Shown: piece after piece, positions 3,870-64,000 of the stretch
Layout of the letters: each line of letters starts with the position of its first letter
How positions within the stretch are numbered: the first letter of the stretch is position 1
Source of the DNA: Sphingobium ummariense RL-3
GTDB lineage: Bacteria > Pseudomonadota > Alphaproteobacteria > Sphingomonadales > Sphingomonadaceae
Length of the DNA: 64,000 nucleotides
Direction of reading: 5' to 3'
Assembly (NCBI RefSeq): GCF_000447205.1
Contig: NZ_AUWY01000136.1
Location: forward strand, 1 to 64,000
Notes under the pieces: generated by a model
Told to the model about the DNA's origin: nothing
Database searches by the model: none
Seen by the model: the letters and a program-made list of their open reading frames with translations, nothing else
Program-made: the position numbers and the translations under genes

Positions 3870-3872
3870 GGG

Positions 3873-3907
3873 AAAAAGGGCGGTGGAGGGATCCACCGCC
3901 CTTTTTT
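3873..3907. terminator. bidirectional rho-independent terminator
   Basis: The stem GGGCGGTGG / CCACCGCCC (3878-3886 and 3893-3901) is flanked by five A on the left and six T on the right. It can therefore end both the plus-strand aminopeptidase and the minus-strand phytase transcript, which converge here. Confidence 0.9.
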
Positions 3908-3916
3908 CGAGGTTGC

Positions 3917-46235: not shown

Positions 46236-47047
46236 TCAGCTTGCCGCCGGGATGATCGGCAGCAGGATTCGGGACGGATGTGCTTCGTCATGAAGCACCT
46301 GCTGATGCGCGACCTTCGCGTCCGCCAATGTGCCGCCCCATTCATCCCAGATGTTGAGGTTTCTCGCCCAGCGAGGGAAGCAACTGCTGGTGACGTCCAG
46401 TTGCAGCTGATGCCCCGCCTTGAACAGGTTGCTCGTCGGCAGAAGTTCGATGCGCAGCAGATAGGGCTTGCCGGGTTCCAGCGGTTCCGCCTGCCGGGTG
46501 AGGTCGTCGGGATCGTCGCGATAGCGGGCGCGGATGATGCCGTCGGTGATGAGGCGCGCCGTGCCGTCCGGATGCACGTCCACCAGTCGGGCGACGAAAT
46601 CGGTGTCGACCACATCGGTCTTCACCCACAGTTCGACAAAGGGCGTTCCGGTGACTTCGATCTCCTCTTCCAGAATATCGGATGTATAGACCAATATGTC
46701 ATCGCGCTTCTCTATCAGATTCTGGTCGCTGCCGCCCGGAACGCAGCTTACGCCGAACACCGCGCCGCCGCGCGTGGGCACGGGATTTGCCGGGTCGTAG
46801 ACGAAGGCGTCGGGTGGTCCGCCACTGCCCTGTTGCGGTGACAGGACGCCATCGCCCTCGCTCGTATTGGCCTGGCCGCCGCTCGACAGATACCAAGGCG
46901 TGACGACGGTGCGCGCTATCGGCCATTCCTGTTCGTCGCGCCACCTGTTCGCGCCCATGATCCAGATCTTGACCGGCGCTGCCTCCTCGCCTTCGTCCAG
47001 CGCGGAAAAATAGCGGGCGGCAAGGCCCATATGGCCGAAGGGATTAA
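46236..47047 (-). pseudogene. CocE/NonD family hydrolase, C-terminal part (interrupted by IS)
   Basis: About 270 codons covering NPFGHMGLAARYFSALDEG, the WIMGANRW segment, and the C-terminal jelly-roll domain (VYDPANPVPTRGG; SDILEEEIEVTGTPFVELWV; LQLDVTSSCFPRWARNLN). This is the second half of a cocaine-esterase/X-Pro dipeptidyl-peptidase-type serine hydrolase. The first half is at 48696-49669. Joining the halves at one TTAA gives a continuous frame of 593 residues, the normal family length. The frame enters this part from the insertion element through a short element-derived peptide, so no functional product is expected from this half alone. Confidence 0.85.
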
Positions 47048-48695
47048 CCCGCACTATTCATGAGGCCTCCGCTCCGGGTTCGTGCGAGCATGGTTTGTCG
47101 GTCGTCGGGTGATCAGAGCAAGCTCCTCCGGCGGTTTTTTTCACCGCGTCAGGATCGATGGGCTTTTCGAGGTTGAAGGACGAGGGCTCGGGCTTTGGGC
47201 GGCACTGCCGCGCTGGTTATGTGGGTGCCGGCCGGAGGCCGGTGGCAATGGTTCTGAACAGGCTGGCATCGGGACAGGCTGACGCGAAGGCGACGCGGAT
47301 GCGCGTAGCGGTTTCGATGACGCGGGCGGCGACCTTGAGCAACCGCAGGCGCAGCGTTGCGAACTCGGCGGTGGCGAGCGCGGCAGCCTTCGGGATTTCC
47401 TGCTGGATGCGCCACACGAGCCAGTAGGCGGCGGTGTGCAGGATGAGGCGCATCTGGTTGGCATTGGCTGAGCGGCACGAGGTACGATCGCTGGCAAGCT
47501 GGGTCTTGTGGCGCTTGATCAGGTTCTCGGCGTTGCCGCGCGCGCAGTAGAGGGTGTCGTAGATATGCTCAGCCGAACCTTCGGCCAGCGAGGTGACGAC
47601 ATAGCGGATGTCCATGCCCAGCGTGCTGGCCTCGATCCGGGCGACGACGCGGCGCTGGCACTTCCAGCTCTTCGCGCCGTAGCGGGTCTCGGCATAGTTG
47701 CGCAGGACCGGATATTGGCGCTGAGCCCGCTTAACCGCGCAGGCATCGGCGGCAGCGACGATTTCGGGATCAGCACGCAGCGCGGCGTTGGTCGGCAGGC
47801 CGAACACGTAGTCGACGCCGGCCGCCTCGCAGAAGGCCATGACCTCGGGCCGGCCATAGTGCCCGTCGCCGCGGATGGTGATGTGCGTTTCGGGCCAGTG
47901 CCGGCGCAGATGGCGCACCAGGCGCCGGATGTGGCCGGCAGCTTCGGCGCCCGACGGTGTCTTGCCGGTGCGCAGCAGCATCGCCACCGGTCGGCCGGTG
48001 GCAGTGTCGTAGACATGGATCGGCAGGAAGCAGCGCTCGCCATGATGCCCGTTCCAGAAGGAGAGCTGCTGATAGCCATGAACAACGTCACAGGTGTCAT
48101 CGATATCCAGCGTCACCGCCGCCGGCGCGGCGGGGTAGCTGGTGCAGTAGATGTCGATCATCGCGGCCATCATCCTGGCCAGTTCGCGTGTGGTCGGCGC
48201 ATTTTCCCACCGGCTCATCGTCGGTTGGCTGGCCAGCCCCGCGCCCGATCCCGGCAGCTTGCCCAGCGCCAGACGGAAGCCCGGATCGTCGCGCAGAGCG
48301 TCGAGATCATCGGCGTCTTCATAGCCGCAGGCGATCGCGAACACCCGGGCACGCAGGATGTCATCAAGGCGATGGATCACCCGCACAGGGTCCCGCGGAT
48401 CGGCAATGCAAGCCGCAAGCCGCCGGCAAAGCCCCATCGCGCGCTCGGCCTGTGCCAGCAGCAGAACACCGCCATCCGAGGTGAGCCGACCTCCGTCGAA
48501 CGCGGCTGTGATCTTCTTGCGCCCGATCGCTGGAAACGAAAATCCCGGCGCGCTATCATCGCTCCCGGCGGGTGTGGCCCGTGGCATAAATTGCCTCGCT
48601 GCAGGACTGGTCTAGACACCCATTTTCCTACATCAAAGCAATCGCTTACACCACTCCCGCCAACCCTGCTGACTGAGCCCGATGAATAAGCCGGG
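47048..48695 (-). mobile_element. IS1380-family insertion sequence, 1648 bp, with TTAA target duplication
   Basis: The ends are imperfect inverted repeats (CCCGCACTATTCATGAGGCC at 47048-47067, and inverted at 48676-48695; 14 of 20 identical). TTAA lies directly outside both ends (47044-47047 and 48696-48699). The element carries one transposase gene on the minus strand. It splits the CocE-type hydrolase gene. Confidence 0.9.
47217..48587 (-). CDS. IS1380-family transposase
   Basis: Transposase of 456 residues with the family N-terminus (DGGRLTSDGGVLLLAQAERAMGL). The probable DDE residues are Asp in TLDIDDTCD, Asp in TIRGDGHYG and Glu in ARGNAENLIKRHK. The frame is intact, so the element may be mobile. 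The gap of 169 bp from its stop to the element end holds no other gene. Confidence 0.92.
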   Translation of the reverse strand: MPRATPAGSDDSAPGFSFPAIGRKKITAAFDGGRLTSDGGVLLLAQAERAMGLCRRLAACIADPRDPVRVIHRLDDILRARVFAIACGYEDADDLDALRDDPGFRLALGKLPGSGAGLASQPTMSRWENAPTTRELARMMAAMIDIYCTSYPAAPAAVTLDIDDTCDVVHGYQQLSFWNGHHGERCFLPIHVYDTATGRPVAMLLRTGKTPSGAEAAGHIRRLVRHLRRHWPETHITIRGDGHYGRPEVMAFCEAAGVDYVFGLPTNAALRADPEIVAAADACAVKRAQRQYPVLRNYAETRYGAKSWKCQRRVVARIEASTLGMDIRYVVTSLAEGSAEHIYDTLYCARGNAENLIKRHKTQLASDRTSCRSANANQMRLILHTAAYWLVWRIQQEIPKAAALATAEFATLRLRLLKVAARVIETATRIRVAFASACPDASLFRTIATGLRPAPT

Positions 48696-49669
48696 TTAAG
48701 CGCTTGGATCGCGGCGGAACCGGGCAATATCTGTTCGCCCGTCATCTTGCTCTGCGGATGATGCGCCCAGGGGCCGACGATCAACCGGCTTTTCGTCCGC
48801 GCGCCGTCGCTGCGCGCCCTTGAACGGAGGCCGACGAACTGGTCGATCGAACCGCGGATGAAGATGTCATACCATCCGGCCACGATCAGCGCGGGAACGG
48901 TGATATTCTCGTACTCGTTCGCCCGGGCGCTGGCCTTCATGGACGGATCGTCGATGCCATTCTTTAGCAGCGCGAAAAGCTGCGCGCCCTGCGCGCTGTG
49001 CTTCACCGGCTCGAAACGGTTGAGCGGGAGATGGTTGTAGCCGCCGTCCCGCGCCAGGGCTTCGAGCAACGCGCCCGCGCGCGCGATGGCCTCGGTCCGG
49101 GCCTCGGGGGAGTCCCAGTCGCGGCGCATGAGCTCTTCGACGCCCAGCATGGTCCACCAGTAGCCGTTCAGCTCCAGCTCGAAGACGCCGCTGCAATAGA
49201 TGAAGGAGCGGTTGAAGTGGCCCACCGGCACGATGGGGTTGATCGCCTGCAGGGAGGGCGGCTGCTCGGCCGCTGCCGCCCATTGCACGAACCCCAGATA
49301 GGAAGGGCCGCTCATATAGACCCTGCCGTTGGAATAGGGGAGGGCGGCCGCCCATTCCACCACCTCCGCGCCGTCCCGTCCCTCGTCGACCCATGGTTGG
49401 AAATCGGCCTTGCCATCCGATGTCCCGCGACCCCGCACGTCCTGGATGATGGTGACATACCCGTGCCGGGCGCCGTGCGTCAGGTCGGTCGTGAACCCCG
49501 GCGCCACGGCTTTGCCATAAGGCGTGCGTGCGAGAATGACCGGCCATCGTCCTTCCCCCGCCGGCCGCGCCACATCGGCGCGGAGCACTGTCCCGTCGCT
49601 CAGCGTGCAGGGAACGTCATAATGGATCACCACGTCCTGCGGAACGGCAGCCTGGTCAGAGGACGGCAT
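48696..49669 (-). pseudogene. CocE/NonD family hydrolase, N-terminal part (interrupted by IS)
   Basis: About 324 native codons with the alpha/beta-hydrolase part: TLSDGTVLRADVARPAGEG, RTPYGK, IQDVRGRGTSDG, the nucleophile elbow MSGPSYLGF (Ser-x-Ser context of the family) and IVGPWAHHPQ carrying the His. The frame runs into the IS1380 element after AIQALNP and continues in element sequence to 48377. The intact protein would hydrolyse an ester or amide. It is downstream of the TonB receptor on the same strand, so the two probably formed one transcription unit, now disrupted. Confidence 0.85.
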
Positions 49670-49834: not shown

Positions 49835-51121
49835 TTAGAAATGATAGCCCACCGACATGCCCACCTGGCGGCCCGGCTGATACTGGCCGAGCGCAAGCGA
49901 GCCGATGATGGAAGACACGACGATCACGTTGCCCTTCACCTGTTCGTTGGTCACATTCTTGACGAAGAGGCTGCCCGTCAGGCGGCCGTTGTCGCTTTCA
50001 TAATTCAGGAACAGGTTGAGCTTGCCTACCGATTTCTGCGAGGAAATGGGCAGGTTGAACTCGGTGAAATATACGCGCGATTTCCAGTCGTAGCGGGCGC
50101 CCAGCGTGACCTTCCCCGTTGAGGTCGGAATGTCATAATAGCCGCCCAGGCTGCTCGTATATTTGGGCGATTGCGGCAAAGCATTGCCCGACAGGTCGAT
50201 CGAACAGGGGACATTGCCTACCCCGGTGCCCGGATCGCACGTCGTGGGGCGGGAAGAGTCTGCCGTCTGGAACCGGTCGAACGACGTATTCAGATAGGCG
50301 CCCGACCATTCGATGCGCAGCGCATCGGCGAGGCGCAGGGAGGTTTCCAGTTCGACGCCATAGACCGTCGCCTTGGCCGCGTTGGTGACGGAGGAGGAGA
50401 CGCCGACGATCTGGTTCACCTGCAGGTCGTCATATTTCATGTAGAAGGTGGCAAGATTGGCCTGCAGCGCACGGTTGAAGAAATTGCCCTTCAACCCCGC
50501 CTCATAGTTGGCGTTGGTCTCCGGACGGAAGGAAGGCGCCAGCGTGCCCGCTGAATAGCCGCCGCCCTTGAAGCCGGTCGAATATTTGAGATAGCCGTCG
50601 AGCGTGGGGCTGAATGCATAGGACGCGCCCAGTTCGTAGGTCAGCCGATCCCATTTCGAAGTGGACGACTGAAGCGCGCCGCCATTGATGAAGTTGTTAT
50701 ACTGAACGATCGACTTCTTGTCGCGGGTGTAGCGCAGGCCGGCAAACAGCTTGAAATCGCGCGTGAACGCATATTGGGCGCGCCCGAACGCAGCATAGGA
50801 TGTGGTGATGAGCGGAACCGCGCCGCCGAATACGGTGATGTTGTAGAGCGTGACGCCCCCGCCCAGAGGCGCTTCGGCAATGGGCACCTCGATCGCCTGT
50901 TCCAGATGCTCGCGGAAGTAATTGACACCCAACAGATAGGTGAACGGCTTGGAGTTGTCGGAGGTGTAGATGAGTTCGTTGTAGGTCTGGCGCGCCGTAT
51001 TCTTGAAGGACGCATAGGTGTCCTCCGCCGCCGTCCCGTCGCCATCCGATACGTTGAGCAGCTTGGAGTCGGCATAGGAAAGGAGCGCCTTCAGATTCCC
51101 GCCGCCGAGCGCCCAGTTTAG
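49835..51121 (-). pseudogene. TonB-dependent receptor, C-terminal part (interrupted by IS)
   Basis: The barrel-forming C-terminal 427 codons: it resumes with NWALGGGNLKALLSYAD directly at the element edge and ends GMSVGYHF, a normal outer-membrane C-terminus. It is similar over the whole length to the receptor at 25280 (for example LAPSFRPETNANYEAGLKG against LAPAFDPEKNTNLEAGLKG). The N-terminal part is at 52579-53548. Removing the element with one TTAG gives a continuous 750-residue receptor, close to the 743 residues of the paralogue. Confidence 0.88.
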
Positions 51122-52578
51122 CAGGCCGTTGACGAAGTCGGCGGTGGCTGATTCAGTGCGGCAGTGGGATTGTCTGGCGGGTTAGCGGCGATGGCGATGG
51201 GGCGTGATAGCGAGGTCCAGTCCGATTTGATCGTGACGTGGGCGGAGATACCGCGTTCACCGGGGCATGTTTTCTACGACAAGCTCCAGAAGCTGCTGGC
51301 CGAGGCGGGCTTCGATGGCTTTGTCGAGAAGACGTGCAAGCCCTATTATGCGCCGCGGATGGGAGCCCCGTCGCTGCCGCCGGGCCGCTATTTCCGCATG
51401 CTGCTGATCGGCTATTTCGAGGGCATCGACAGCGAACGCGGGATTGTCTGGCGCTGTTCGGATTCGCTGTCGCTGCGGGAGTTCCTGCGACTGTCGAGCC
51501 GCGACAAGGTCCCTGATCATAGCTGGTTGTCGAAGACGCGGAGCCGCCTGCCGCACGAGGTACATGACCAGATCTTCGGCTGGGTACTGGCCCTCGTCGC
51601 CGGGCACGATCTGGTGAAAGGCGAGCGGATCGGCGTCGATGGCTCGACCATGGAGGCGAACGCCGCGCTGCGTACCATCGTGCGGCGTGACAATGGCGAG
51701 ACCTACCGCGAGATGCTGGTGCGCATGGCGCAAGAGAGCGGCATCGACACGCCGACGATCGACGACCTTGTCCGGCTCGATCGCAAACGCAAGGGCAAGA
51801 AGCTGTCGAATGCGGACTGGGCGAGCAAGACCGATCCCGACGCGAAGGTCGCGCGGATGAAGAACGGCTCGACGCGTCTGGCCTACAAGCCCGAACACGC
51901 GGTCGATCTCGACACGGGTGTTATCGTGGCAGCGCCGATCCACCCGGCCGACAAGGGCGACACGACAACGCTCGACGCCACGCTGGAGACGGCAGCACGC
52001 AACCTCGCCGACATTGGCCTGGCGCCGACGTCCGGGGATCCCTGCGATCTTGTGACCGATAAAGGCTATCATTCGCGCGAGCTCCTCAAGGGTCTCGACG
52101 GCGACATCTGGAAGACGCGCATCGCCGAGCCGGCACCGCCGAATGGATATCTGCGCTGGCACGGCGACGAGGCTGCCCAGAAGGCCGTCTACGCCAATCG
52201 GTCTCGCCTGAAATCCGCCGTCGGACGCAAGGCGATGCGCAAGCGTGGTGAGATGGTCGAGCGTAGCTTTGCCCACGTCCTGGATCGCGGCGGCATGCGC
52301 CGCGCGTGGCTGCGCGGGCGCGAGAATGTTCACAAGCGTTATTTGATCCACGTCGCCGGGTTCAATCTTGGCATTCTCATGCGCGCCCTGTTCGGTTGCG
52401 GCACTCCGAGGGGCGCCAGGGGCGCATCCAAGGCATTCTTGTTCGTAGTTCAGACCGATGTTGCGCTCGTCATCGCCCTCGTCGCCGAGTTCGACGGAGA
52501 AAGGGCCATGCTCCTCATCGTTTTTACCCCTGAAGGCGCTGACAGACCCGGCTGAAAACCGACTTCGTCACCGCGCTG
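51122..52578 (+). mobile_element. IS1182/IS5-superfamily insertion sequence, 1457 bp, with TTAG target duplication
   Basis: The inverted repeats CAGGCCGTTGACGAAGTCGG (51122-51141) and, inverted, CAGCGCGGTGACGAAGTCGG (52559-52578) agree at 17 of 20 positions. TTAG lies outside both ends (51118-51121 and 52579-52582). A single transposase gene is on the plus strand. The element interrupts the TonB receptor gene on the other strand. Confidence 0.9.
51191..52555 (+). CDS. IS1182-like transposase
   Basis: DDE transposase of 454 residues. It shows YFRMLLIGYFEGIDSERGI, PDHSWLSKTRSRLP, the first catalytic Asp in IGVDGSTMEANAALR, Asp in LVTDKGYHS and the C-terminal Glu in RGEMVERSFAHVLDRGGMRR. The ATG at 51191 was chosen over a GTG nine codons upstream. 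The frame is intact and ends 23 bp before the element edge. Confidence 0.9.
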   Translation: MAMGRDSEVQSDLIVTWAEIPRSPGHVFYDKLQKLLAEAGFDGFVEKTCKPYYAPRMGAPSLPPGRYFRMLLIGYFEGIDSERGIVWRCSDSLSLREFLRLSSRDKVPDHSWLSKTRSRLPHEVHDQIFGWVLALVAGHDLVKGERIGVDGSTMEANAALRTIVRRDNGETYREMLVRMAQESGIDTPTIDDLVRLDRKRKGKKLSNADWASKTDPDAKVARMKNGSTRLAYKPEHAVDLDTGVIVAAPIHPADKGDTTTLDATLETAARNLADIGLAPTSGDPCDLVTDKGYHSRELLKGLDGDIWKTRIAEPAPPNGYLRWHGDEAAQKAVYANRSRLKSAVGRKAMRKRGEMVERSFAHVLDRGGMRRAWLRGRENVHKRYLIHVAGFNLGILMRALFGCGTPRGARGASKAFLFVVQTDVALVIALVAEFDGERAMLLIVFTPEGADRPG

Positions 52579-53548
52579 TTAGGGTCAGGTTCGCGTTGAA
52601 GGCATGAACCTTGCGATAGTTGATGTTCGCGAACACTTCCCGATCGCCGACATCGCCGCGCGACTGTCCGACTAGGATCGACGGCAGCGGAATGGTCGGA
52701 TCGGGGGTTCCCTCCAGGAAAGTCGCCGGTCCGTTGGAATCGTCGTTGGCATATTCAACCAGAACCCGCGCATTGAAAGAGTCCGATGGCTCCCACTTGA
52801 TCTGGCCGCGGATCGACTGGTTCTTCGCGTCGTCCAGGCGGTTGGGGCCGTTGGGGAGGAGATTGCGCGTGAAGCCGCGATTATAAGTCTGCTGCGCCGC
52901 GACGCGGCCGCTCAGCGTCCCTGAATCGTTGAGCGCGCCGTTGATGAAGCCTGAGATCTGGAACAGGGCTGGATCGACGCCCGCTGTCAGGTCAAAGCCA
53001 TAATGGGTCTCAGCGGTCGGCTCGTTCGGAACCACGTTGATGACGCCACCGGTGGCGTTACGTCCGAACAGCGTGCCCTGCGGCCCGCGAAGAATTTCCA
53101 CGCGCGCCAGATCGAGGAAGGTCGCGAGGGTCAGTGACGGCTGGCCGATATAGACCCCGTCGGAATGGATCGCGACGCCCGAATCCTGGCCTGCGTTGAT
53201 CTGCTGGTTGCCGATGCCGCGGATTGTGATGTTCGACGAATTGTAGCTGTTGCCGATCTGGATGTTGGGGCTTGGCCCGACTAGGTCGTTGAGGCTCTTC
53301 GTCTGGGCGGCCTCGAGCTTCTGCCCGGCATAGGCGGACACGGCGATGGGCGTTTTCCGAACGGTGTCGCTCCGGCGCGACGCCGTAACGATGATTTCGC
53401 CGAGGTCTTGCGAAGACAGGTCTTGCGAGGGTCTCCCTGTTCTGGCGGCCGGTTCACCGGCTGGCTGGGTCGGTGATATGTCGGCCTGAGCCAGTGCAAC
53501 GTGCGACACGCATATCCCGCAAATGGCGATGAGCAATCGGTAACGCAA
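52579..53548 (-). pseudogene. TonB-dependent receptor, N-terminal part (interrupted by IS)
   Basis: The first 323 codons of the receptor: signal peptide ending VALAQ, TonB-box and plug start LGEIIVTASRRSDTVRKTPIAVSAYAG, the plug motif ARVEILRGPQGTLFGRNATGG, and the first barrel strands up to NANLTL, where the element begins. The TTG at 53548 was chosen because AGGGAGGGG lies 5 bases upstream; a GTG at 53575 is less well supported. Without the element it continues into 49835-51121. Upstream lies foreign debris (IS256 and relaxase pieces), so the native promoter may also be gone. Confidence 0.88.
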
Positions 53549-53705
53549 TTTCCCCTCCCTTATTTTTGCTGCCACCTTTTAGAGGGTGGCTATGCAGGCT
53601 TGGAATGATGGATCATCACAAAGTGGGGGTGTTAATTTCTCGCATTCGACGGACTGCGATACAGCATTCCTCAACGTCAGCCCGGGTCGTGTCCCGCGGG
53701 ATTCA

Positions 53706-54882: not shown

Positions 54883-54900
54883 TTGTCATCAATCTTTCAC
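54883..54900 (+). promoter_or_regulatory. Pho-box-like site upstream of the sigma factor gene
   Basis: TTGTCAT-CAAT-CTTTCAC consists of two 7-bp blocks with the 4-bp A/T-rich spacer of a PhoB half-site pair. It agrees at 12 of 14 block positions with CTGTCAT/CTGTCAC. It lies 83 bp ahead of the ECF sigma start. The remaining 54832-54983 sequence shows no gene. Confidence 0.45.
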
Positions 54901-54983
54901 GTGCAGGGTCTTTTGGGAGCCATCCTTGCCTGCGCCGATTCGGCTGGCGGCAAATCCAGAGGATCGCGAACGGCTGACGGCGC

Positions 54984-55577
54984 ATGGGGGATGGGCACGA
55001 CATCATTTCCGCATGGATCGGCAGGGAAGTTCTGCCCCATGAAGGCGCCGTGCGCAGCTGGCTTTCGCGTCGCTGGCGCAATGTGGTCGATCCCAACGAC
55101 GTGATCCAGGAAGCCTATTGCCGCATCGCCAGCCTGGCCTCCGTCGATCATATCCGCAATCCCGCAGCTTATTTCCATCGCACCGCCCATGCGGTCGCGA
55201 CCGACATCATGCGTCGCTCGGGCATAATTAGTTTCACGTCCATGACCGAAAACGAATGGCTGAACGTCATGGACAGGGAGCCATTGGCAGATCGGGCGGT
55301 GGCGGCGGACCAAGATCTGAAGCGCGTAAACGGGCTGCTCGCCGAATTGTCCGACACCTGCCGCCAGGCCATCGAGCTGCGACGGATAGAAGGCGTGTCA
55401 CAAAGAGAGGCGGCCCAGCGCCTGGGAGTGAGCGAGGATGTCATACGAAATCATCTGGTGCGCGGCGTGCAAAAGGTGCTGAAGGCAATCGCGGCCCAGG
55501 ACGCGCAGGCACATGGCGACGGGCAAGAGACCGTAGAACAGAAGGCGGAAGCCATTGGCACCCCCCGGTTCCTCTAA
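54984..55577 (+). CDS. ECF sigma factor, FecI-like
   Basis: Extracytoplasmic-function sigma factor of 197 residues. Region 2 reads VVDPNDVIQEAYCRIASL and PAAYFHRTAHAVATDIMRR (core and -10 binding). Region 4 reads LSDTCRQAIELRRIEGVSQREAAQRLGVSEDVIRNHLVRGVQKV (-35 binding). It is followed by a FecR anti-sigma gene that overlaps its end and by a receptor with a signalling domain. That is the cell-surface signalling layout in which substrate binding to the receptor frees the sigma factor. Confidence 0.9.
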   Translation: MGDGHDIISAWIGREVLPHEGAVRSWLSRRWRNVVDPNDVIQEAYCRIASLASVDHIRNPAAYFHRTAHAVATDIMRRSGIISFTSMTENEWLNVMDREPLADRAVAADQDLKRVNGLLAELSDTCRQAIELRRIEGVSQREAAQRLGVSEDVIRNHLVRGVQKVLKAIAAQDAQAHGDGQETVEQKAEAIGTPRFL

Positions 55578-56586
55578 CAGCATCGACGACCAGGCTGCCC
55601 ATTGGGCGGTAGAGGCAGCCTATGGTGAGCTGTCGCCGGAAAGCCACGCCGAGCTGGAAGCCTGGCTCGCGGAGGATTCGCGTCATCGCGGCGCCTTCGC
55701 GCGCGTTCGTGCCGCCCTGCATGTCATGGAAGAGGCAGTGGTTGATGCCCATGAGGCGACTGGGCCTTCTCCTTCGTCGAATGGCGACAACGACAATGAT
55801 GCCGCGCATGGGGCAAACGCGGACGTGCCCGGGCCTTTGCAGCGCGGATTTTTCCGCTGGGGGGCAAGGGGCTTTGCAGCCGGCGCAGCGCTCGCCGCGT
55901 CGGTCGCGGCGGCCGTCATGGTGGGCGTGCCGGTTCCCCTGCCGTTCGGGCGGGCCGTTCAGGATGGCGCCGGCGAACAGGTGGTAACACTCAAGGACGG
56001 ATCGGTCGCGACCCTGCGCCATGGCGCGAAGCTGGAAGTCACGCTGTCCGGCAATTTTCGCCGGATCACCCTGCTGAACGGGGAAGCGCGTTTCAAGGTC
56101 GCGAAGGACAAGTCGCGCCCCTTTGTGGTACGATCCGGCGATGTCTATGCGCAGGCGACCGGGACCGTCTATTCGGTCAGCCGTGTCGGCCTGACCGGCG
56201 GGACCGTCAAGGTGACGGAGGGCAGCGTGCTGGTGTGGTCGCGCGATGAGCGTGAACAGGCGGTCCTGCTCCATGCGGGGGACGCCGTGACCCTCGATCT
56301 GGGGCCGGTGCAATTGCCCGCGCCCGGAACGAAGGGCGTGCCGTCCCTGCCGCCGCCCGAACTGGCCCAGATCTCGTTCGACAATGTGCCGATCAAATCG
56401 GCCGTGGCCCGGTTCAACCGCGTCAACAGCACCAAGATCATCATCGCCGATCCTGCGATCGGCGACACCAGGATCGTCGGCCTGTTCGGCGCCAGCGACA
56501 TCGAGCAGTTCGCGCAGGCCGCCGCGGTCCTGTCGGGAGGCAAGGTCGAGCATGGGAACGGCATAATTGTAATAAAAAAGAAGTAA
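55555..56586 (+). CDS. FecR-like anti-sigma factor/signal transducer
   Basis: Inner-membrane regulator of 343 residues. It has a cytosolic N-domain (DDQAAHWAVEAAYGELSPESHAELEAWLAEDSRHRGAFARV), one membrane span at about residues 103-125, a periplasmic FecR domain (TLKDGSVATLRHGAKLEV; LLNGEARFKVAKDKSRPFVV; TGTVYSV) and a C-terminal STN-like segment (FDNVPIKSAVARFNR). It relays the state of the TonB receptor to the sigma factor. The start is probably a TTG at 55555, inside the sigma gene, after AAGGCGGA. Confidence 0.9.
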   Translation: MAPPGSSNSIDDQAAHWAVEAAYGELSPESHAELEAWLAEDSRHRGAFARVRAALHVMEEAVVDAHEATGPSPSSNGDNDNDAAHGANADVPGPLQRGFFRWGARGFAAGAALAASVAAAVMVGVPVPLPFGRAVQDGAGEQVVTLKDGSVATLRHGAKLEVTLSGNFRRITLLNGEARFKVAKDKSRPFVVRSGDVYAQATGTVYSVSRVGLTGGTVKVTEGSVLVWSRDEREQAVLLHAGDAVTLDLGPVQLPAPGTKGVPSLPPPELAQISFDNVPIKSAVARFNRVNSTKIIIADPAIGDTRIVGLFGASDIEQFAQAAAVLSGGKVEHGNGIIVIKKK

Positions 56587-56679
56587 AAATGCCTTGAATG
56601 ATTAATTTATTCGGGGTGACCGAAATAAAAATCCAGCCCGTCAATAGGTTTGAGAGCATCAAACAGAGGGGCTTTCCCA

Positions 56680-59600
56680 ATGAATTTCAAATATCGTTCA
56701 TCTCTTTCCTCCATGGCGGCCATTGCGGGGGCGATAGTGCTGCCCGCCGTGGCGCAGGCCCAAACCCGCAGTTTCGATATCCCCGCCCAGGCGGCGTCGA
56801 GCGGGGTCCGGGAGTTCGCGCGCCAGGCGGGCATTCGCGTCATCGTCGCCGGCCGCGACACCGACGGACGGACCACCAAGGCGGTGCAGGGCACCCTCGA
56901 CACGCGCGAGGCGCTCGACCGGCTGCTGGCGGATACGGGGCTGACCGTCCGGTCCTTCGGCGGCGGGGTCGCCATATTGGGCGGCATGTCCGACCAGCGG
57001 TCCGACGCGGGGGACATCACGACCGATATCCAGGTCACCGGAACGCGCATCGTTCGCGACGGCTATGACGCGCCCACGCCCACGACGGTGCTGAGCGAGG
57101 AGGAAATCGCCCGGCGAGCGCCTGAAAATATCGCCGATTATGTCACCCTGCTGCCGGCGGTGACCCCCGGCAACTCCCCGGCGCAGAACACAGGGACCAC
57201 CGCTTCGGGTGCCACGGGCGTCAATTCGCTCGACCTGCGCAACCTGGGCACCAGCCGCACCCTGGTCCTGCTGGAAGGGCGCCGCCTGCCTGCCGCCACC
57301 ATCAACGGATCGATCGTCGACATCAACGTCATTCCCAACGCCTTCATCAAGCGTGTGGACATCGTGACCGGCGGTGCCTCCGCGGCCTGGGGTTCGGACG
57401 CCGACGCCGGCGTGGTCAACTTCGTGCTCGACAAGGAATTCACCGGCGTTAAGGGCAGGGTGCAGGGCGGCGTCACCACCTATGGCGACAGGAAGAATTA
57501 CACGGTCTCGCTCGGCGCCGGCGCCAAGTTCGCCGGCGGCCGCGGCCATATCCTGCTCAGTGTCGAACATTCGCAGATCGACGGGATCGATGGCGTACCC
57601 CGGTCCTGGTACAACGGAAACCGGACCTTCGCCAATCCGGACTGGACGGCGACCAACGGCCAGCCCCGCTACCTTTCGCTGGAGCATGTCGGCTACAGCG
57701 CGATCGCGCCGGGCGGTATCGTGACGTCCGGCCCGTTGCGCGGCGTGTATTTCGGACAGAACGGCACGCCCGCGCAGATCAATTTCGGATCGCTGCTGAC
57801 CTCTTCGACCTTCGTCGGCGGCGACTGGAAATATACCGACTGGTCGAAGAACACCCAGTCCTTCCTCAACGGGAATTCGCGGCAGAGCGCCTTCGCGCGC
57901 ACCAGCTTCGATCTGACCGATTCCATCCAGCTCTACGGCCAGTTCATCTTCACGCGTTCGAATGTGACATCGGTCGCCGCGCCGACCATCACGACCGCCA
58001 ATATCAGCCGCGACAACGCCTTCCTGCCCGCCAGCGTCGCCCAGCGCATGGACCAGCTCGGCCTCACCACGCTGAATGTCGGATCGTCCAACTGGGACTT
58101 CGGCAACAAGAATTATGAGAGCAATCACTCGCTCTACCAGTATCTCGTCGGCGCCAACGGATCGCTCGACCTCTTCGGAAAGGGCTTCACCTGGGAAGTC
58201 TCGGCCTATCGCAGCATCAGCAAGATCGGTCAGGACTTCATGGTGCCCAAGAGCGCCGAGTTCAACATGGCCATGGACGCCGTCCGCGGTCCGAACGGCG
58301 TCGTCGTCTGCCGGTCGACGCTGACGAACCCGGGCAACGGCTGCGTGCCCTACAACCGGCTCGGCACCGGGGTGAACAACCAAGCCGCGATCGACTATCT
58401 TATGGGGACCGACTGGGTGCGCCAGACCATACGCCAGGACGGCGTGGCGGGCACGCTCCGGGGAGAACCCTTCTCGACATGGGCTGGCCCTGTGTCCATC
58501 GCCACCGGCTTCGAATACCGCAAGGACAAGGCCTATGGCACGGCCGACCCGTTGGGCCTGGTCAACGGCTTCGCCAACGGCAACTACAAGCCGATCGTGG
58601 GCTCGATGGACGTGACCGAGGGGTTTCTGGAAGTCGTCGTCCCGCTGGTCAAGGACACGATCTTCAAGTCGCTGGATTTCAACGGCGCGGTTCGCGGCAC
58701 CGACTACAGCTCGTCGGGATTCGTCACCACCTGGAAAGGCGGCGTCACGTTCGAGCCGACCGAGGATGTGAAACTGCGCTTCACCCGCTCACGCGACATC
58801 CGGGCGGGCAACCTGTCGGAGCTGTTCGCCGCGGGTTCCACCGGGTCGTCCGTCATCTCCGACCCGTTCCTGGGCGGCGAGGCCTATACGACGCAGCTGA
58901 TCACCACCGGTAACCCGACGATCCGCCCGGAAAAGGCGAACACGATCACCTTCGGCGCCGTCCTGACGCCCCGCTTCATCCCCGGCCTGTCGCTGTCGGC
59001 GGACTATTGGGACGTAAAAATCCGCGACGCCATCACCTCGGTGTCCGGCAGCTCGACGGTCGACCAGTGCTTCAACGGTATCCAGGATCTCTGCGACAAC
59101 ATCGTGCGCGGCGACAATGGAAAGATCCGCTACGTCTATACGCGCCCCGTCAATCTCGACCTCTTCTGGGCGCGGGGCATTGATTTCGAGGCGAGCTACC
59201 GGCTTCGCATGGCCGATGTGGCGGCGTCGCTGGGTTCGGGCACGCTGTCGTTCCGCGGACTCTTCACCCTCAACCTCAAGAACGGCAGCGAAAGCGGGCT
59301 GACCGGGATTTTCGACTCCGCCCTTCGGGAAGGCGGGGCGCCGAGATATCGCTATCTGGCCGATCTATCCTACCGCAATGGACCGCTCACCGTATCGCTG
59401 ACCGGCCGCGGCATCAGCGCCGGCGTCCGCGATACCAGCTTCGTCGAATGCAGCACCAACTGCCCCGGCGGAAACAACACGATCAACAACAACCATGTCG
59501 AAGGTGCCTTCTGGGTCGATGCGTCGGCGAGCCATGAAATCGTCGAAGGCGTGGAGGGCTTCTTCGTGGTCACCAACATCGCCAATCGCGCGCCGATCGC

Positions 59601-59703
59601 ATCCGCCGATGGCCCGGGGTTCAGCACCGCGCAGTTCGGATATAACCGCGCCTATTCCGACCTGGGCCGCGCCTTCCGGGCCGGGGTTCGCTTCAAATTC
59701 TAG
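56680..59703 (+). CDS. TonB-dependent receptor with STN signalling domain
   Basis: Outer-membrane transducer-type receptor of 1007 residues. After a signal peptide (ending AVAQAQ) comes an STN/secretin domain (RSFDIPAQAASSGVREFARQAGIRVIVAG; LDTREALDRLLADTGLTV), the partner of FecR. Next are the plug (LRNLGTSRTLVLLEGRRLPAATING; IVTGGASAAWGSDADAGVVNF) and a long barrel ending AGVRFKF. The ATG at 56680 was chosen because AGAGGGG precedes it and the signal peptide begins there. With a phosphatase encoded downstream, an organophosphate cargo is a reasonable inference. Confidence 0.92.
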   Translation: MNFKYRSSLSSMAAIAGAIVLPAVAQAQTRSFDIPAQAASSGVREFARQAGIRVIVAGRDTDGRTTKAVQGTLDTREALDRLLADTGLTVRSFGGGVAILGGMSDQRSDAGDITTDIQVTGTRIVRDGYDAPTPTTVLSEEEIARRAPENIADYVTLLPAVTPGNSPAQNTGTTASGATGVNSLDLRNLGTSRTLVLLEGRRLPAATINGSIVDINVIPNAFIKRVDIVTGGASAAWGSDADAGVVNFVLDKEFTGVKGRVQGGVTTYGDRKNYTVSLGAGAKFAGGRGHILLSVEHSQIDGIDGVPRSWYNGNRTFANPDWTATNGQPRYLSLEHVGYSAIAPGGIVTSGPLRGVYFGQNGTPAQINFGSLLTSSTFVGGDWKYTDWSKNTQSFLNGNSRQSAFARTSFDLTDSIQLYGQFIFTRSNVTSVAAPTITTANISRDNAFLPASVAQRMDQLGLTTLNVGSSNWDFGNKNYESNHSLYQYLVGANGSLDLFGKGFTWEVSAYRSISKIGQDFMVPKSAEFNMAMDAVRGPNGVVVCRSTLTNPGNGCVPYNRLGTGVNNQAAIDYLMGTDWVRQTIRQDGVAGTLRGEPFSTWAGPVSIATGFEYRKDKAYGTADPLGLVNGFANGNYKPIVGSMDVTEGFLEVVVPLVKDTIFKSLDFNGAVRGTDYSSSGFVTTWKGGVTFEPTEDVKLRFTRSRDIRAGNLSELFAAGSTGSSVISDPFLGGEAYTTQLITTGNPTIRPEKANTITFGAVLTPRFIPGLSLSADYWDVKIRDAITSVSGSSTVDQCFNGIQDLCDNIVRGDNGKIRYVYTRPVNLDLFWARGIDFEASYRLRMADVAASLGSGTLSFRGLFTLNLKNGSESGLTGIFDSALREGGAPRYRYLADLSYRNGPLTVSLTGRGISAGVRDTSFVECSTNCPGGNNTINNNHVEGAFWVDASASHEIVEGVEGFFVVTNIANRAPIASADGPGFSTAQFGYNRAYSDLGRAFRAGVRFKF

Positions 59704-59710
59704 CGAGCGG

Positions 59711-59746
59711 CGGCGGCGGGTGCCCCTTCCGGGGCGCCCGCCGCCG
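59711..59746 (+). terminator. strong stem-loop behind the receptor gene
   Basis: A 16-bp stem with one G-U pair (left arm CGGCGGCGGGTGCCCC) closes a TTCC loop 8 bp past the stop. No T run follows. It may end transcription partly, or stabilise the receptor mRNA and set its level apart from the phosphatase gene. Confidence 0.55.
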
Positions 59747-59806
59747 GCCTTCGCGTCCATCGACTTTCCTCATGTTTGTCCGCTCGTGTCGGACCGGAGA
59801 TGACCC

Positions 59807-61051
59807 ATGAAGCGTAGAGAATTCCTGGCCGCCGTTGCGCTGACCTCTGTCCTTCCCTTCCACGCGGCGTTTGCTCAGCGGACGGTACAGCCACAGGTTG
59901 TGGGAACGCCGTTCCGGCGGCGTTGGCCCGATGCGCCCTATGCCCGCAACATCTGGACCATGGAGGTGTTCGAGGACCGGCTCTTTCTGGGTGCGGGCAA
60001 CAGCGCGAATGGCGGGCCATCCTCCAATTCCGGGCCGGTTCCGGTCATCTCCTACGACGGACAGGCCTTTGCCGAGGAATATACCGTCAACGAGGAGCAG
60101 ATCACCCACTTCTACCCGACGGGCGGGAGCCTGATCGTCCCCGGGCACGACAGCCGCGACGACTGGTCCTACGGCAATCTCTATCGCCGTGCCGATGGCC
60201 GCTGGACCAAGCTTCGGACGGTGCCGCACGGCATCCACGTCTACGACATCCGCGCCTATGCTGGGCGGTTGGTCGCCGTGGGCGGCGCGTTCGACCAGTC
60301 CATTTCCGCCTGGATATCGGACGACGACGCGGCGACGTGGAAACCCGCGGCGCTGCTTCCCAATCCCGCGCTGGCGCCTTCCTTCTCCCCGGCGGGCAGG
60401 AACGCCACCGTGCTGGGGCACCAGACCGTCGTCGTGGGCCGGTTCTGGACCCTGCTGGAGATCGGCGACGCGCTCTACGCCAGCACGACCGCGCCGTTGA
60501 GAGTGGGCGAGGGGGAGGACGGCCTGCGGATGGCGACGCTCTTCCGCTTTGATTCTGCCCGGAACGGCTTTCAGCCCGTGGCTTTCGGAATGCCGGCGCT
60601 GTTCCCCGGCGTCCCGGCGGACGGCACCCGGACGGGGCTGGTCGAACGCTGGGCCCGGATCGGCCAGGAGACGGTCTATATCGGCGGATGGCAGCATAAT
60701 GACCACCAATGGCTACCGATCGGCCTCTTCGCGGCGACCTCGCCGGAAAAGGCCCGCCGCCTGGCCCTGCCGGCAGACGAGCAGCCCTGGGACATCCTCG
60801 TCAGGGACGGCCGCCTCTACTGCCTGTCCGCAAGGCGGGAGGCGCCGGACCGGTTCCGCATTTCGGTTACCCGCTTCGAGCGCGACCTGGGCAAGGGGAA
60901 GCTGCTGCTGAGCTTTGACGCACCCACTTTCGCGCGGTCGTTCGCCGTTTTCCGCGGGCGATTTTATTTCGGCCTCGGCACGGAAACCGACATGGGTGTG
61001 CCGCTGTCGGATGCGAGCGGCACGCTGCTCAGCACCCCTTTCATCCCCTGA
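59807..61051 (+). CDS. exported beta-propeller-like protein of unknown function
   Basis: Protein of 414 residues. The N-terminus MKRREFLAAVALTSV with a twin-arginine pair and a hydrophobic core ending FAQ suggests export by Tat or Sec. The body has repeated short blocks, each with a Trp or Tyr near a Gly-Gly (GNSANGGPS, SDDDAATWKPAA, VYIGGWQHND, RFYFGLGTETD), as in sialidase- or Kelch-like propellers. I do not recognise a family. It sits between the receptor and the phosphatase genes, so it may bind or process the same organophosphate. Confidence 0.75.
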   Translation: MKRREFLAAVALTSVLPFHAAFAQRTVQPQVVGTPFRRRWPDAPYARNIWTMEVFEDRLFLGAGNSANGGPSSNSGPVPVISYDGQAFAEEYTVNEEQITHFYPTGGSLIVPGHDSRDDWSYGNLYRRADGRWTKLRTVPHGIHVYDIRAYAGRLVAVGGAFDQSISAWISDDDAATWKPAALLPNPALAPSFSPAGRNATVLGHQTVVVGRFWTLLEIGDALYASTTAPLRVGEGEDGLRMATLFRFDSARNGFQPVAFGMPALFPGVPADGTRTGLVERWARIGQETVYIGGWQHNDHQWLPIGLFAATSPEKARRLALPADEQPWDILVRDGRLYCLSARREAPDRFRISVTRFERDLGKGKLLLSFDAPTFARSFAVFRGRFYFGLGTETDMGVPLSDASGTLLSTPFIP

Positions 61052-61133
61052 ACCGCATCGGGCCTGCGACCCGGATCTGCAACAGTCCGCCGTTAGGCCC
61101 CGAAGACTCCAACGCTCCCGAGGTAGCAAGCCC

Positions 61134-62279
61134 ATGTCCCGATCGATCGAACATTTCCGCGCGTCCCGCAATCGCAAGGGCGGGCGAGTTGCTGCGTTGC
61201 TTGCGCTGGCGATGCTGTCGCTCGTCGCTGCGACCCCCGCCGAAGCACGCCCGGCGCGCAACGTGATCCTGTTCATCGGCGACGCGGGCGGCCTGCCGAC
61301 GCTGAACGCGGCGGGCATCTATGCGCATGATCGCCCGCAATCGCTGTTTCTGCAGTCCATGCCCCATATCGGCCTGTCGGACACCTCGGCGCTCAACCGC
61401 TGGGTGACGGACTCCGCGGCGGGCATGACCGCGATCGTCACGGGCCACAAGACCAACAGCGGCATGAATTCCGTCCTGCCGTCCGCCGACGGGACGACGG
61501 TGACGCCGCTGAAGACGATCCTGGAATATGCCGAGCAGCGCGGGCTTTCCACCGGCGTCATCACCAACATGCCGATCTGGGATGCGACGCCGGCCGCCTG
61601 CTATGCCCATGTCGGCAAGCGGTCCGAGAAGGACGATATCTTCCGGCAATTGCTGGCGCCCCGCTATGGCGACGGCGTCGATATCGTCATCGGCAAGGAC
61701 CGCGCGGCCGCCGATGCCGCGTTTGCCGGCACGGGAAGGACGGCGGCCCAGGCCTTCGAGGCCGCGGGCTATACCTTCAGCGACGATCCGTCCGTGCTGA
61801 AGCCGGATACGCGCCGCGCCGCGATCATCCGCGACGAGGATTATGCCGCCATCCCGACCGTCGAGGCCGCCATCTCCAGCCTCAGTCGCAACCCGAAGGG
61901 CTATTTCCTGATGGTGGAGTGGGACATGCACACCAACAAGCTCCAGGACGGGCTGCGGCACGTCATCGAGATGGACGACATGATCCGCAAGGTCAGCGAG
62001 CGCGTGGGCAAGGATACGCTGATCCTGTTCGTCGCCGACCATTCCTATAATCTGAAACTGCTGTCGGGCACACGCGATCGCCCGCTTGCCGAGCAGGTTT
62101 CTGCCGACCAGTCGGCGCCCGGAACCGGCGTGATCGTCGCCGACGGCAAGGGCGCCCATGCCGGGGAAGAGGTCGTCGCGGCGGCCAGCGGCCCCGGGGC
62201 GGAACGCGTGAAGGGCTTCTTCCCTAACACTTGGCTGTTCAACGTCATGATGTCGGCTTTCGGTTGGAAGGCCGACTGA
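61134..62279 (+). CDS. alkaline phosphatase, PhoA family, exported
   Basis: Phosphomonoesterase of 381 residues with a signal peptide ending AEARP. The metal-binding Asp50 is in ILFIGDAGG, the nucleophile Ser94 is in VTDSAAGMTAIVTG, the second metal cluster is in VEWDMHTN, and DHSYN carries a further Asp-x-His. It releases phosphate in the periplasm or outside. The ATG at 61134 was chosen at the signal peptide; the frame is open upstream without homology. It ends the sigma-receptor-phosphatase locus. Confidence 0.88.
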   Translation: MSRSIEHFRASRNRKGGRVAALLALAMLSLVAATPAEARPARNVILFIGDAGGLPTLNAAGIYAHDRPQSLFLQSMPHIGLSDTSALNRWVTDSAAGMTAIVTGHKTNSGMNSVLPSADGTTVTPLKTILEYAEQRGLSTGVITNMPIWDATPAACYAHVGKRSEKDDIFRQLLAPRYGDGVDIVIGKDRAAADAAFAGTGRTAAQAFEAAGYTFSDDPSVLKPDTRRAAIIRDEDYAAIPTVEAAISSLSRNPKGYFLMVEWDMHTNKLQDGLRHVIEMDDMIRKVSERVGKDTLILFVADHSYNLKLLSGTRDRPLAEQVSADQSAPGTGVIVADGKGAHAGEEVVAAASGPGAERVKGFFPNTWLFNVMMSAFGWKAD

Positions 62280-62791: not shown

Positions 62792-63175
62792 TCATCGACG
62801 ATGATGTGCTCCCGGTGGCGCCAGTTCACCTCTTTTCACCTCCGTCTTGACCATCCGCTCGGGTGCCAGATGCTCGGACAATGACGCCAGCGCTGCCGCT
62901 GGATCATGACGGGCGCCACACAGGAAGATATCGGCAGCCGCATAGCCATGTTCGGGCCATGTGTGGATCGACATATGGGATTCCGCGAGCAGGACCACAC
63001 CGGTGACACCCTGCTCTTCCCCGAAATGATGGAGGTGAAGACCGATCACCGTCGCCCCGGCGCTCTCCGCCGCGCTGCGCAGGGCGATCTCTATCAAGGC
63101 AGCATCGTTCAGCACCGGGCATCCATAGAAGTCCGCCAGCAGGTGTCTGCCATCATATGTCGAGGGCGGGATCAT
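62792..63175 (-). CDS. speD: S-adenosylmethionine decarboxylase proenzyme
   Basis: Pyruvoyl enzyme of 127 residues that supplies decarboxylated AdoMet for spermidine-type polyamine synthesis. The self-cleavage site is Glu65-Ser66 (LLAESHMSIHTWPEHGYAA), with His71 and Cys86 as the processing and proton-donor residues. The length fits the short bacterial class. The ATG at 63175 overlaps the stop of the oxidoreductase gene upstream by four bases (ATGA), so the two are translated together. Confidence 0.93.
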   Translation of the reverse strand: MIPPSTYDGRHLLADFYGCPVLNDAALIEIALRSAAESAGATVIGLHLHHFGEEQGVTGVVLLAESHMSIHTWPEHGYAAADIFLCGARHDPAAALASLSEHLAPERMVKTEVKRGELAPPGAHHRR

Positions 63176-64000
63176 AAGAGGGTCTCGTGAGCATGGCCGA
63201 GCGACGACAAGGCGGCTTCCGCAGCTGCCATGCCTTGATAATGCGCTTCCTCGAACAGCGACAGGCCGCTCATGTCCGAATGGGCGCGGAAGAAAGGCGG
63301 CCGGATCGCAGCCCGTTGGGCCGGCACGACCCGCCACAGGAAGCCAGGCGTCGGCCGGATCATGGCATGCCCCCATTTCCACAGGTCGATCGACCGGATC
63401 GCGCCGTCAAGATCGGGGTTCATGCCCAGCAGATCGTCGCGCACCATCCGTCGCCACTCCGCGTCGGAGCGCTCGACCAGGAGGCGACGGCCGTAGATAG
63501 GCGACATGTCGGACAGGGCCAAATACCAGGTCAGCACCGTCGGGCCTTCGCGCGAAGCGCTCTGATGGGTGGCAACGACATAGCCGAGCGAGGCGCTGCT
63601 TGCCGAGACATTGTCCCACGCCAACCCGCTTCCTTTTCCAGCCGGCACGCGATCGACAGTGACGTTGGCGACAAGCCAGGGAGCATAGCTATGGGCGGGA
63701 TCGGGCTTTTCGCCGAGCAGGCGGCTGGCGATGAAGTGCGGCATGGCAAGGATGACGGCATCGGCGCGGTAGCGGACGCTGGTGCCCTGCGCAGCGTTGA
63801 AGACATCGACGGCTGCGCCGGCCTTATCAGCCTGGGCGCGGAAAGCGACCTGCCCCGTAAGGATGCGGTTCCCTAGCCGCTCGGCCATCAGACGGGTGAG
63901 GCGTCCATTGCCTTCCGGCCAGGTCAGTTCATTGTCGCCTGCGCCATCTGCGGTGAAGCCGCGCCGGCTGGCGAAATAGTGGATGCCGGCCCACGCCGAC
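63172..64000 (-). CDS. FAD-dependent oxidoreductase (amine-oxidase-like), 5' end outside window
   Basis: The minus strand is open from the window edge to the TGA at 63172, giving the C-terminal 275 residues. Features are IHYFASRRG, LTWPEGNGRL, a Rossmann-associated segment VRYRADAVILAMPHFIASRLLG, RWRRMVRDDLLGMNPDLD-like substrate-domain text, and the C-terminal FAD contact FRAHSDMSGLSLFEEAHYQG. The start lies beyond 64000. Tight coupling to speD suggests a polyamine-related oxidation, but the family is broad. Confidence 0.8.
   Translation of the reverse strand, partial: SAWAGIHYFASRRGFTADGAGDNELTWPEGNGRLTRLMAERLGNRILTGQVAFRAQADKAGAAVDVFNAAQGTSVRYRADAVILAMPHFIASRLLGEKPDPAHSYAPWLVANVTVDRVPAGKGSGLAWDNVSASSASLGYVVATHQSASREGPTVLTWYLALSDMSPIYGRRLLVERSDAEWRRMVRDDLLGMNPDLDGAIRSIDLWKWGHAMIRPTPGFLWRVVPAQRAAIRPPFFRAHSDMSGLSLFEEAHYQGMAAAEAALSSLGHAHETLL

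Follow-up and report, generated by a model that had tools for sequence, protein, structure and literature searches.

Why should an operon with the regulators of ferric citrate signalling end in an alkaline phosphatase? Cell-surface signalling through receptors with an STN domain is mostly known for iron, and the question arises from a locus of Sphingobium ummariense RL-3 in which five genes, read on the + strand, encode an extracytoplasmic function (ECF) sigma factor, a FecR-type anti-sigma factor, a TonB-dependent receptor, an exported protein and a PhoA-family phosphatase. The stretch analysed here (contig NZ_AUWY01000136.1, positions 1 to 64,000; hereafter the window) comprises 64,000 nucleotides of a 4.75-Mb genome. 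Judging from its sequence, the locus is probably a PhoB-gated cell-surface-signalling operon that scavenges a phosphate ester, a reading carried by a Pho box ahead of the sigma gene, by the conservation of this box and by the genes that recur in the company of the phosphatase.

The predicted Pho box lies at 54884..54900 on the + strand and consists of the half-sites TGTCAT-N5-TTTCAC at a spacing of 11 bp. It is part of TTGTCATCAATCTTTCAC (54883-54900, + strand), 83 bp 5' of the ATG of the sigma gene at 54984. The original prediction had described it as a PhoB site matching at 12 of 14 positions; the site is indeed present, but its agreement with CTGTCAT-N4-CTGTCAT amounts to 11 of 14 positions and reaches 12 of 14 only if the final C is allowed. 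Since a bare match to the consensus is at chance level, a lineage-specific matrix derived from pstS promoters was used as the test. pstS is present in 60 of the 61 genomes of the genus, and the matrix was based on the 30 best-matching of these 60 loci. All 30 promoters carry an NGTCA(T/C)-N16-NGTCA(T/C) repeat, located 105-118 bp 5' of the pstS match, with a degenerate half-site in between and a period of 11 bp. The resulting 17-mer matrix, built from 17 distinct sites in these promoters and none from the locus under study, places the + strand site at 54884 first among the 127,968 positions of the window, and the site shows the direct repeat expected of a Pho box.

The same element is found in the only two other full clusters detected, those of Sphingomonas sp. 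dw_22 (L069) and S. kyeonggiensis (L070), where it aligns as CGTCATCAATATTTCAC and GGTCATCAACATGTCAT, respectively. Conservation in this promoter alignment starts at the box, with none upstream, and the 17-mer matrix ranks the box 2 of 42,446 in L069 and 1 of 42,458 in L070. Within the genome of S. ummariense, FecR matches number seven, and the best scores upstream of the sigma genes that precede the other six are 3.6, 12.1, 5.4, 6.0, 5.3 and 4.7, versus 15.3 for the one considered here. The same genome also encodes the regulator: a PhoB protein exceeds the cut-off of TIGR02154 (334 bits), and its gene forms one cluster with PhoU and with PhoR-family and PstS-family genes, the latter two having best matches below their cut-offs (291 versus 334 bits and 153 versus 206.6 bits). 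At the level of sequence, the presence of a Pho box before the sigma gene is thus confirmed, and the case for it is stronger than the consensus match first reported had implied.

Two other scans were set aside. One, with a pattern derived from the site itself, was circular and was discarded. The other, a genome-wide search for TGTCATNNNNNTGTCAY with one mismatch, hit 25 places, compared with 5 when the pattern was reversed; we give it no weight as proof, because none of the downstream genes inspected, at 10 of the 25 places, is a classical Pho gene and because the pst locus is missed even with two mismatches. Further one-mismatch Pho-like repeats in the genome are situated near genes for a chemotaxis receptor, two outer-membrane barrel proteins and two TonB receptor-like proteins (L075, L076, L077, L087 and L090).

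The gene list given earlier for this locus (sigma factor, FecR, STN receptor and PhoA-type phosphatase) is borne out by Pfam domain matches. The sigma factor (54984..55577, + strand, 197 residues) matches Sigma70_r2 and r4_2, and the anti-sigma factor (55555..56586, + strand, 343 residues from the first possible start), whose 5' end overlaps the sigma gene (55555 versus 55577), matches FecR and DUF4880. The outer-membrane receptor (56680..59703, + strand) comprises 1007 residues from the ATG at 56680, a start backed by the orthologues in L069 and L070, and contains STN, Plug and a full barrel (PF00593), although its STN domain just passes the Pfam cut-off (29.2 versus 28.4). All these matches lie over their cut-offs, as is typical of a FecI/FecR/FecA-type gene set. 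The last gene (61134..62279, + strand) encodes a phosphatase of 381 residues that scores 138.9 bits against Alk_phosphatase (PF00245; cut-off 24.4), and no other PF00245 gene was found in the whole genome; the next Pfam-matched gene 3' of it, for an S-adenosylmethionine decarboxylase (62792-63382), is on the opposite strand. Between receptor and phosphatase, the original prediction had missed a fifth gene (59807..61051, + strand), which encodes an exported beta-propeller protein of 414 residues and no known family.

The region between fecR and the receptor gene contains two further candidate elements. The first is a second Pho-like block (56568..56595, + strand), which overlaps the end of fecR and has three half-site positions as in pstS. 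It is the top 28-mer of the window according to a 28-mer pstS matrix (17.3; runner-up 13.3), and the orthologous blocks upstream of the receptor gene, scoring 22.0 and 24.2, are the two highest among the 505,781 bases of loci scanned. Because the matrix favours A-rich spacers and 1 of 30 column-permuted matrices likewise ranked the 56568 region first, the block may equally represent AT-rich DNA upstream of the promoter. Some further 28-mer matches look false, such as the one at position 9077 of L053, which falls within a receptor gene. The DNA from the end of fecR to the start of the receptor gene is conserved, AT-rich codons included. The second element, GACCGAAAT-N10-CCCGTCA at 56618..56643 (+ strand), emerged from a comparison of the window with L069 and L070, in which both boxes are invariant and the spacer is variable. 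The pattern CCGAAATN{10,12}CCCGTCA occurs once genome-wide, at 56618-56643, so that this element has the features expected of a promoter reserved for the sigma factor of the operon, and we presume it to be that promoter.

To place the phosphatase in a wider context, we assembled 23 phosphatase loci from 22 genomes (18 plus 5 added later), which together with the window, L069 and L070 make 26 loci from 25 genomes. The set leaves out a phosphatase fragment at a contig end (G034), two close Novosphingobium plasmid relatives (H2 and H3) and weaker PF00245 relatives (short or low-identity rows; in the later search, all above E 1e-60). In five loci (L050, L056, L057, L060 and L064), the sigma, FecR or phosphatase gene was missed by the gene caller and the counts come from tblastn; the receptor frame of L057 is in two pieces, and the phosphatase match of its genome, G005, spans a TGA, both being counted unchanged. 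Residues D50, D93-S94, T152, R163, E262, D264, H266, D302-H303 and H342 of the enzyme, which we take to have the catalytic roles known from this family, are invariant in six homologues. All six aligned sequences share the metal-ligand loop V-E-W-D-x-H-T, whose E-x-D-x-H spacing is presumably shorter than that of E. coli PhoA.

A TonB receptor precedes the phosphatase in 20 of the 26 loci, and in 15 of the 26 a complete sigma-FecR-receptor set ends in it. These 15 sets fall into a kind A (n=3; the window, L069 and L070), a kind B (n=10; L050, L051, L053-L058, L060 and L061, which are orthologues and not independent) and the divergent L063 and L064. The five-gene clusters of kind A are 68-81% identical, and kinds A and B share 31% identity for the sigma factor, 22% for FecR and 25% for the receptor, in the last case for its N-terminal part only; the set of L063 is about 30% identical to both, and L064 is nearer to kind B (sigma factor 48%, FecR 41%, receptor 34%). 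Given the distance between A and B, either regulators and phosphatase were brought together on more than one occasion, or the regulators were exchanged or strongly diverged. In another five loci (L052, L065, L140, L142 and L144), a receptor was found without sigma factor and FecR, the receptor of L142 being a partial match only and a two-component pair being interposed in L140.

Pho-like signals recur in this wider set. In all ten loci of kind B, repeats of the form GTCA..-AAT-.. and GTCAT-.AAA-.TGA align before the sigma gene, with the best upstream Pho score at -63/-64 in nine loci and at -44 in L057. This score is in the locus top 3 with both matrices in 7 of 10 loci and with one matrix in L053, hence with at least one in 8 of 10. 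The sigma-upstream region of L063 holds the 17-mer of rank 1 in its locus, and L052, in which a receptor gene is followed by a beta-propeller phytase (PF02333, 246.7 bits) and the phosphatase, has a Pho box at -93, again of rank 1. The highest 17-mer score in the loci scanned (17.1) is located about 320 bp upstream of the phosphatase in L059, a locus without a receptor; the matrix scan returned no Pho-like signal upstream in L062, L065 and L066. The lineage-specific box, its conservation, the kind B repeats (10/10) and the PhoB gene with its PhoR- and PstS-family neighbours together lend good sequence support to the earlier proposal that phosphate starvation is the outer control. In an open frame of 878 residues in L141 (9215-11851), the phosphatase occupies a C-terminal portion and the remainder has no Pfam match; this is either a fusion or an overlong frame. 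The classification of a 346-residue protein in L063 as a zinc nuclease or phospholipase, suggested by its motifs, was dropped after the protein yielded no Pfam, NCBIfam or PDB match, and it is left unnamed. Near the kind B cluster of L050, a second TonB receptor is encoded close to a homologue of this protein (3029-7724), possibly as a related scavenging unit.

By its predicted structure, the 414-residue protein is a beta-propeller. A model from a single sequence was useless, with a predicted local distance difference test score (pLDDT) of 33; a model from six sequences reached a pLDDT of 75.7 and a predicted template modelling score (pTM) of 0.81, and propellers were matched in both Foldseek and VIA-align. 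Being generic, these matches point to no particular function; phytase and phosphotriesterase chains are not among the matches listed, which excludes nothing. The protein yielded no Pfam family at E 0.001 (including PF02333, the beta-propeller phytases), no NCBIfam match, no PDB sequence match of note and no sequence homology to enzymes of solved structure, phosphatases and phytases among them. Its invariant residues N-S-x-N, H-D, H and H-N-D-H suggest a site, and its RR-x-F-L start presumably directs export by the twin-arginine translocation (Tat) pathway. The propeller is rare, with strong matches in 2 of 150 relatives besides its own genome, weak ones only in 3 of 397 family members and, in the genome collection, five loci that include a cyanobacterial one at 31% identity. 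Judging from Sphingobium chungbukense and Eilatimonas milleporae, where it follows a related receptor with no phosphatase present, the propeller goes with the receptor. In S. chungbukense, a second, fragmentary copy is located about 60 kb from the first (L014, G045:C10:200829-201099).

Read together, these elements suggest the following mechanism. At low phosphate, PhoB would bind at 54884-54900 and sigma70 would produce the sigma factor and FecR. FecR would then sequester the sigma factor for as long as the receptor in the outer membrane is without ligand. Ligand binding would be relayed to FecR by the STN domain, upon which the freed sigma factor would initiate at 56618-56643 to produce the receptor, the propeller protein and the phosphatase, possibly with the assistance of PhoB at 56568-56595. 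The receptor would import an ester, from which the propeller protein may make, or which it may present as, a monoester, and the phosphatase would release phosphate for PstS. The gene identities, the box, its conservation and the recurrent gene company can be read from the DNA. PhoB binding and an enzymatic propeller are what we infer from them; the order of signalling follows the known biology of FecI-FecR-FecA, and the ester as ligand, like the dedication of the system to organophosphate, follows from the gene company, which is a phosphatase here and also a phytase in L052. A bolder generalization, tentative and rather doubtful at this stage, would be that sphingomonads possess modular PhoB-gated receptor operons for organic phosphate, in which the phosphatase gene stays fixed at the end and both the sigma-FecR-receptor set and the enzyme making the first cut (the propeller, the phytase or the 346-residue protein of L063) are exchanged. 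On this view, the propeller would represent a novel family of phosphoester hydrolases, the ester itself would be what the receptor senses, low phosphate and ester would both be needed, and the receptor promoter would be under the joint control of PhoB and the ECF sigma factor.

Several observations weigh against the reading of the locus as a PhoB-gated phosphate-ester operon. As for the box, the E. coli consensus with up to 3 mismatches finds 4 sites in the window versus 3.03 in shuffles, and the three-half-site 28-mer pstS model gives at most 6.8 before the sigma gene (-2.7 in L069 and 4.9 in L070), so that the site is selected by the 17-mer two-half-site model alone. In addition, L057 and L061 of kind B have weak signals outside the locus top 3, and L064 has weak Pho scores only. 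As for the function, the propeller belongs to no enzymatic family, and in 6 of the 26 phosphatase loci (L059, L062, L066, L067, L141 and L143) neither the genes called nearby nor tblastn revealed a receptor. A cluster of sigma factor, FecR, related receptor and propeller that lacks the phosphatase occurs in S. chungbukense (L012/L068) and Eilatimonas milleporae (L013/L071), and the receptor may therefore not serve the phosphatase alone. The best 17-mer upstream in L012 (TGTAAC-N5-CGTAAC; 13.1, with the sigma start estimated) has poor half-sites and ranks 1 of 37,970, so that a clean pairing of Pho box and phosphatase cannot be claimed; the upstream 17-mer of L013 scores 4.6. Finally, the cluster of L142 also holds a receptor-like gene and genes for a pyrroloquinoline quinone (PQQ) dehydrogenase, an NHL protein, an amine oxidase and a cytochrome c, indicating that the phosphatase can travel with carbon catabolism, a poor fit to a purely phosphate-based role.

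The phosphatase-free clusters and L142 would fit a locus in which PhoB gated the operon but the receptor imported a carbon compound or another nutrient, with the phosphatase trimming off a side group and starvation being merely permissive: the L142 phosphatase stands behind the receptor-like gene and the four others just listed, and the relatives retain receptor and propeller in its absence. Set against this, a phytase occupies the slot of the propeller in L052, and control by PhoB suits the gain of phosphorus more than that of carbon, which leaves nutrient uptake of this type an unlikely explanation. Slightly more remote, in our estimation, is an ordinary iron-type FecI-FecR-FecA operon that acquired the phosphatase incidentally and carries a Pho-like site by chance. 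The Fec-type models matched by the sigma factor, FecR and the receptor, the chance-level agreement with the E. coli consensus and the missing phosphatase of the two relatives would all fit such an operon. However, the site ranks 1 of 127,968 with an independent matrix and is conserved, the other sigma/FecR pairs of the genome are without a box of equal strength, and Pho-like repeats also precede a different sigma set that ends in the same phosphatase clade. Moreover, no Fur-like site stands out. The best match to the classical Fur site, the only type scored, reaches 11/19 near either promoter, a level attained at 102 places in the window, and 12/19 before the receptor gene in L069 and L070. 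This gives the "rather than iron" of the original prediction weak support. That PhoB alone drives both promoters, with a sigma factor and a FecR that are vestigial or serve for fine-tuning only, is likewise unlikely. A pstS-like block does precede the receptor gene (22.0 and 24.2 in the orthologues), but the presumed sigma-type promoter, whose boxes are invariant and whose spacer varies, separates the two, and sigma factor and FecR are kept at 68-81%.

The surroundings of the PhoB-gated operon proposed here are rich in mobile elements on the left flank. A TonB-dependent receptor gene on the - strand (49835-53575) is apparently interrupted by a DUF772/DDE transposase gene (51164-52555, + strand), and a hydrolase gene of the peptidase S15/PepX_C type (46236-49669) is apparently split by a DDE transposase gene (47217-48587) into an N part (48377-49669) and a C part (46236-47054). 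A plasmid origin of the cluster was considered and rejected, the sole matching plasmid record spanning 8% of the query DNA; a search of the plasmid collection with the propeller protein was negative at E 1e-5. L064 (G194:C2) apparently lies on a 200-kb plasmid of Croceibacterium sp. TMG7-5b_MA50, which suggests that a receptor-phosphatase set can be plasmid-borne.

The recurrence of the phosphatase-bearing version with different receptors points to phosphate esters as a ligand class that can be put to the test, and the locus offers a defined two-input promoter and what may be a new family of enzymes. Organophosphate flame retardants are degraded by some sphingomonads, and receptor-gated uptake of phosphate esters in this group, if true, would be of practical use. 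Among the matches listed in the open-access PubMed Central literature, there is no description of such loci in sphingomonads, and the accessible portions of PMC9123166, PMC12406696 and PMC9414882 contain nothing on them.

Compared with known systems, the phosphatase resembles PhoA (PF00245) in its score, far over the cut-off, and in its catalytic positions, which are kept; it differs in being encoded within a receptor operon. The propeller protein is like the beta-propeller phytase of L052 in being a propeller of the secreted type whose gene sits between those of receptor and phosphatase. FecI-FecR-FecA ferric citrate signalling has the same set and order of regulators, an STN receptor and, as presumed here, a sigma-type promoter before the receptor gene, whereas our locus has a predicted Pho box, no classical Fur site that stands out and a phosphatase as its last gene. 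The one proteobacterial case of PhoB-controlled cell-surface signalling that we found is PUMA3 (VreA-VreI-VreR) of P. aeruginosa. Its regulator operon needs PhoB and low phosphate, and PhoB is also required together with the sigma factor at target promoters, which carry Pho boxes (PMC4971064); its inducing signal is called still unknown in the abstract of PMC7035377. Both systems consist of an ECF sigma factor, an anti-sigma factor and a receptor-like protein, with a Pho box on the regulator operon. VreA, in contrast, has no barrel and the gene order is A-I-R, compared with a full barrel and the order sigma-FecR-receptor here, and the targets of PUMA3 are secretion and virulence functions rather than a phosphatase. 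The phosphate utilisation system (PUS) loci of Flavobacterium are similar in that they are induced by phosphate starvation, serve uptake at the outer membrane and combine phosphatases with regulators of the ECF sigma and FecR-like types (PMC8115612), but they are built on the SusC/SusD pairs of Bacteroidetes, and none of the five proteins here matches the SusD family. On this comparison, the sphingomonad loci share a principle with both PUMA3 and PUS and belong to neither.

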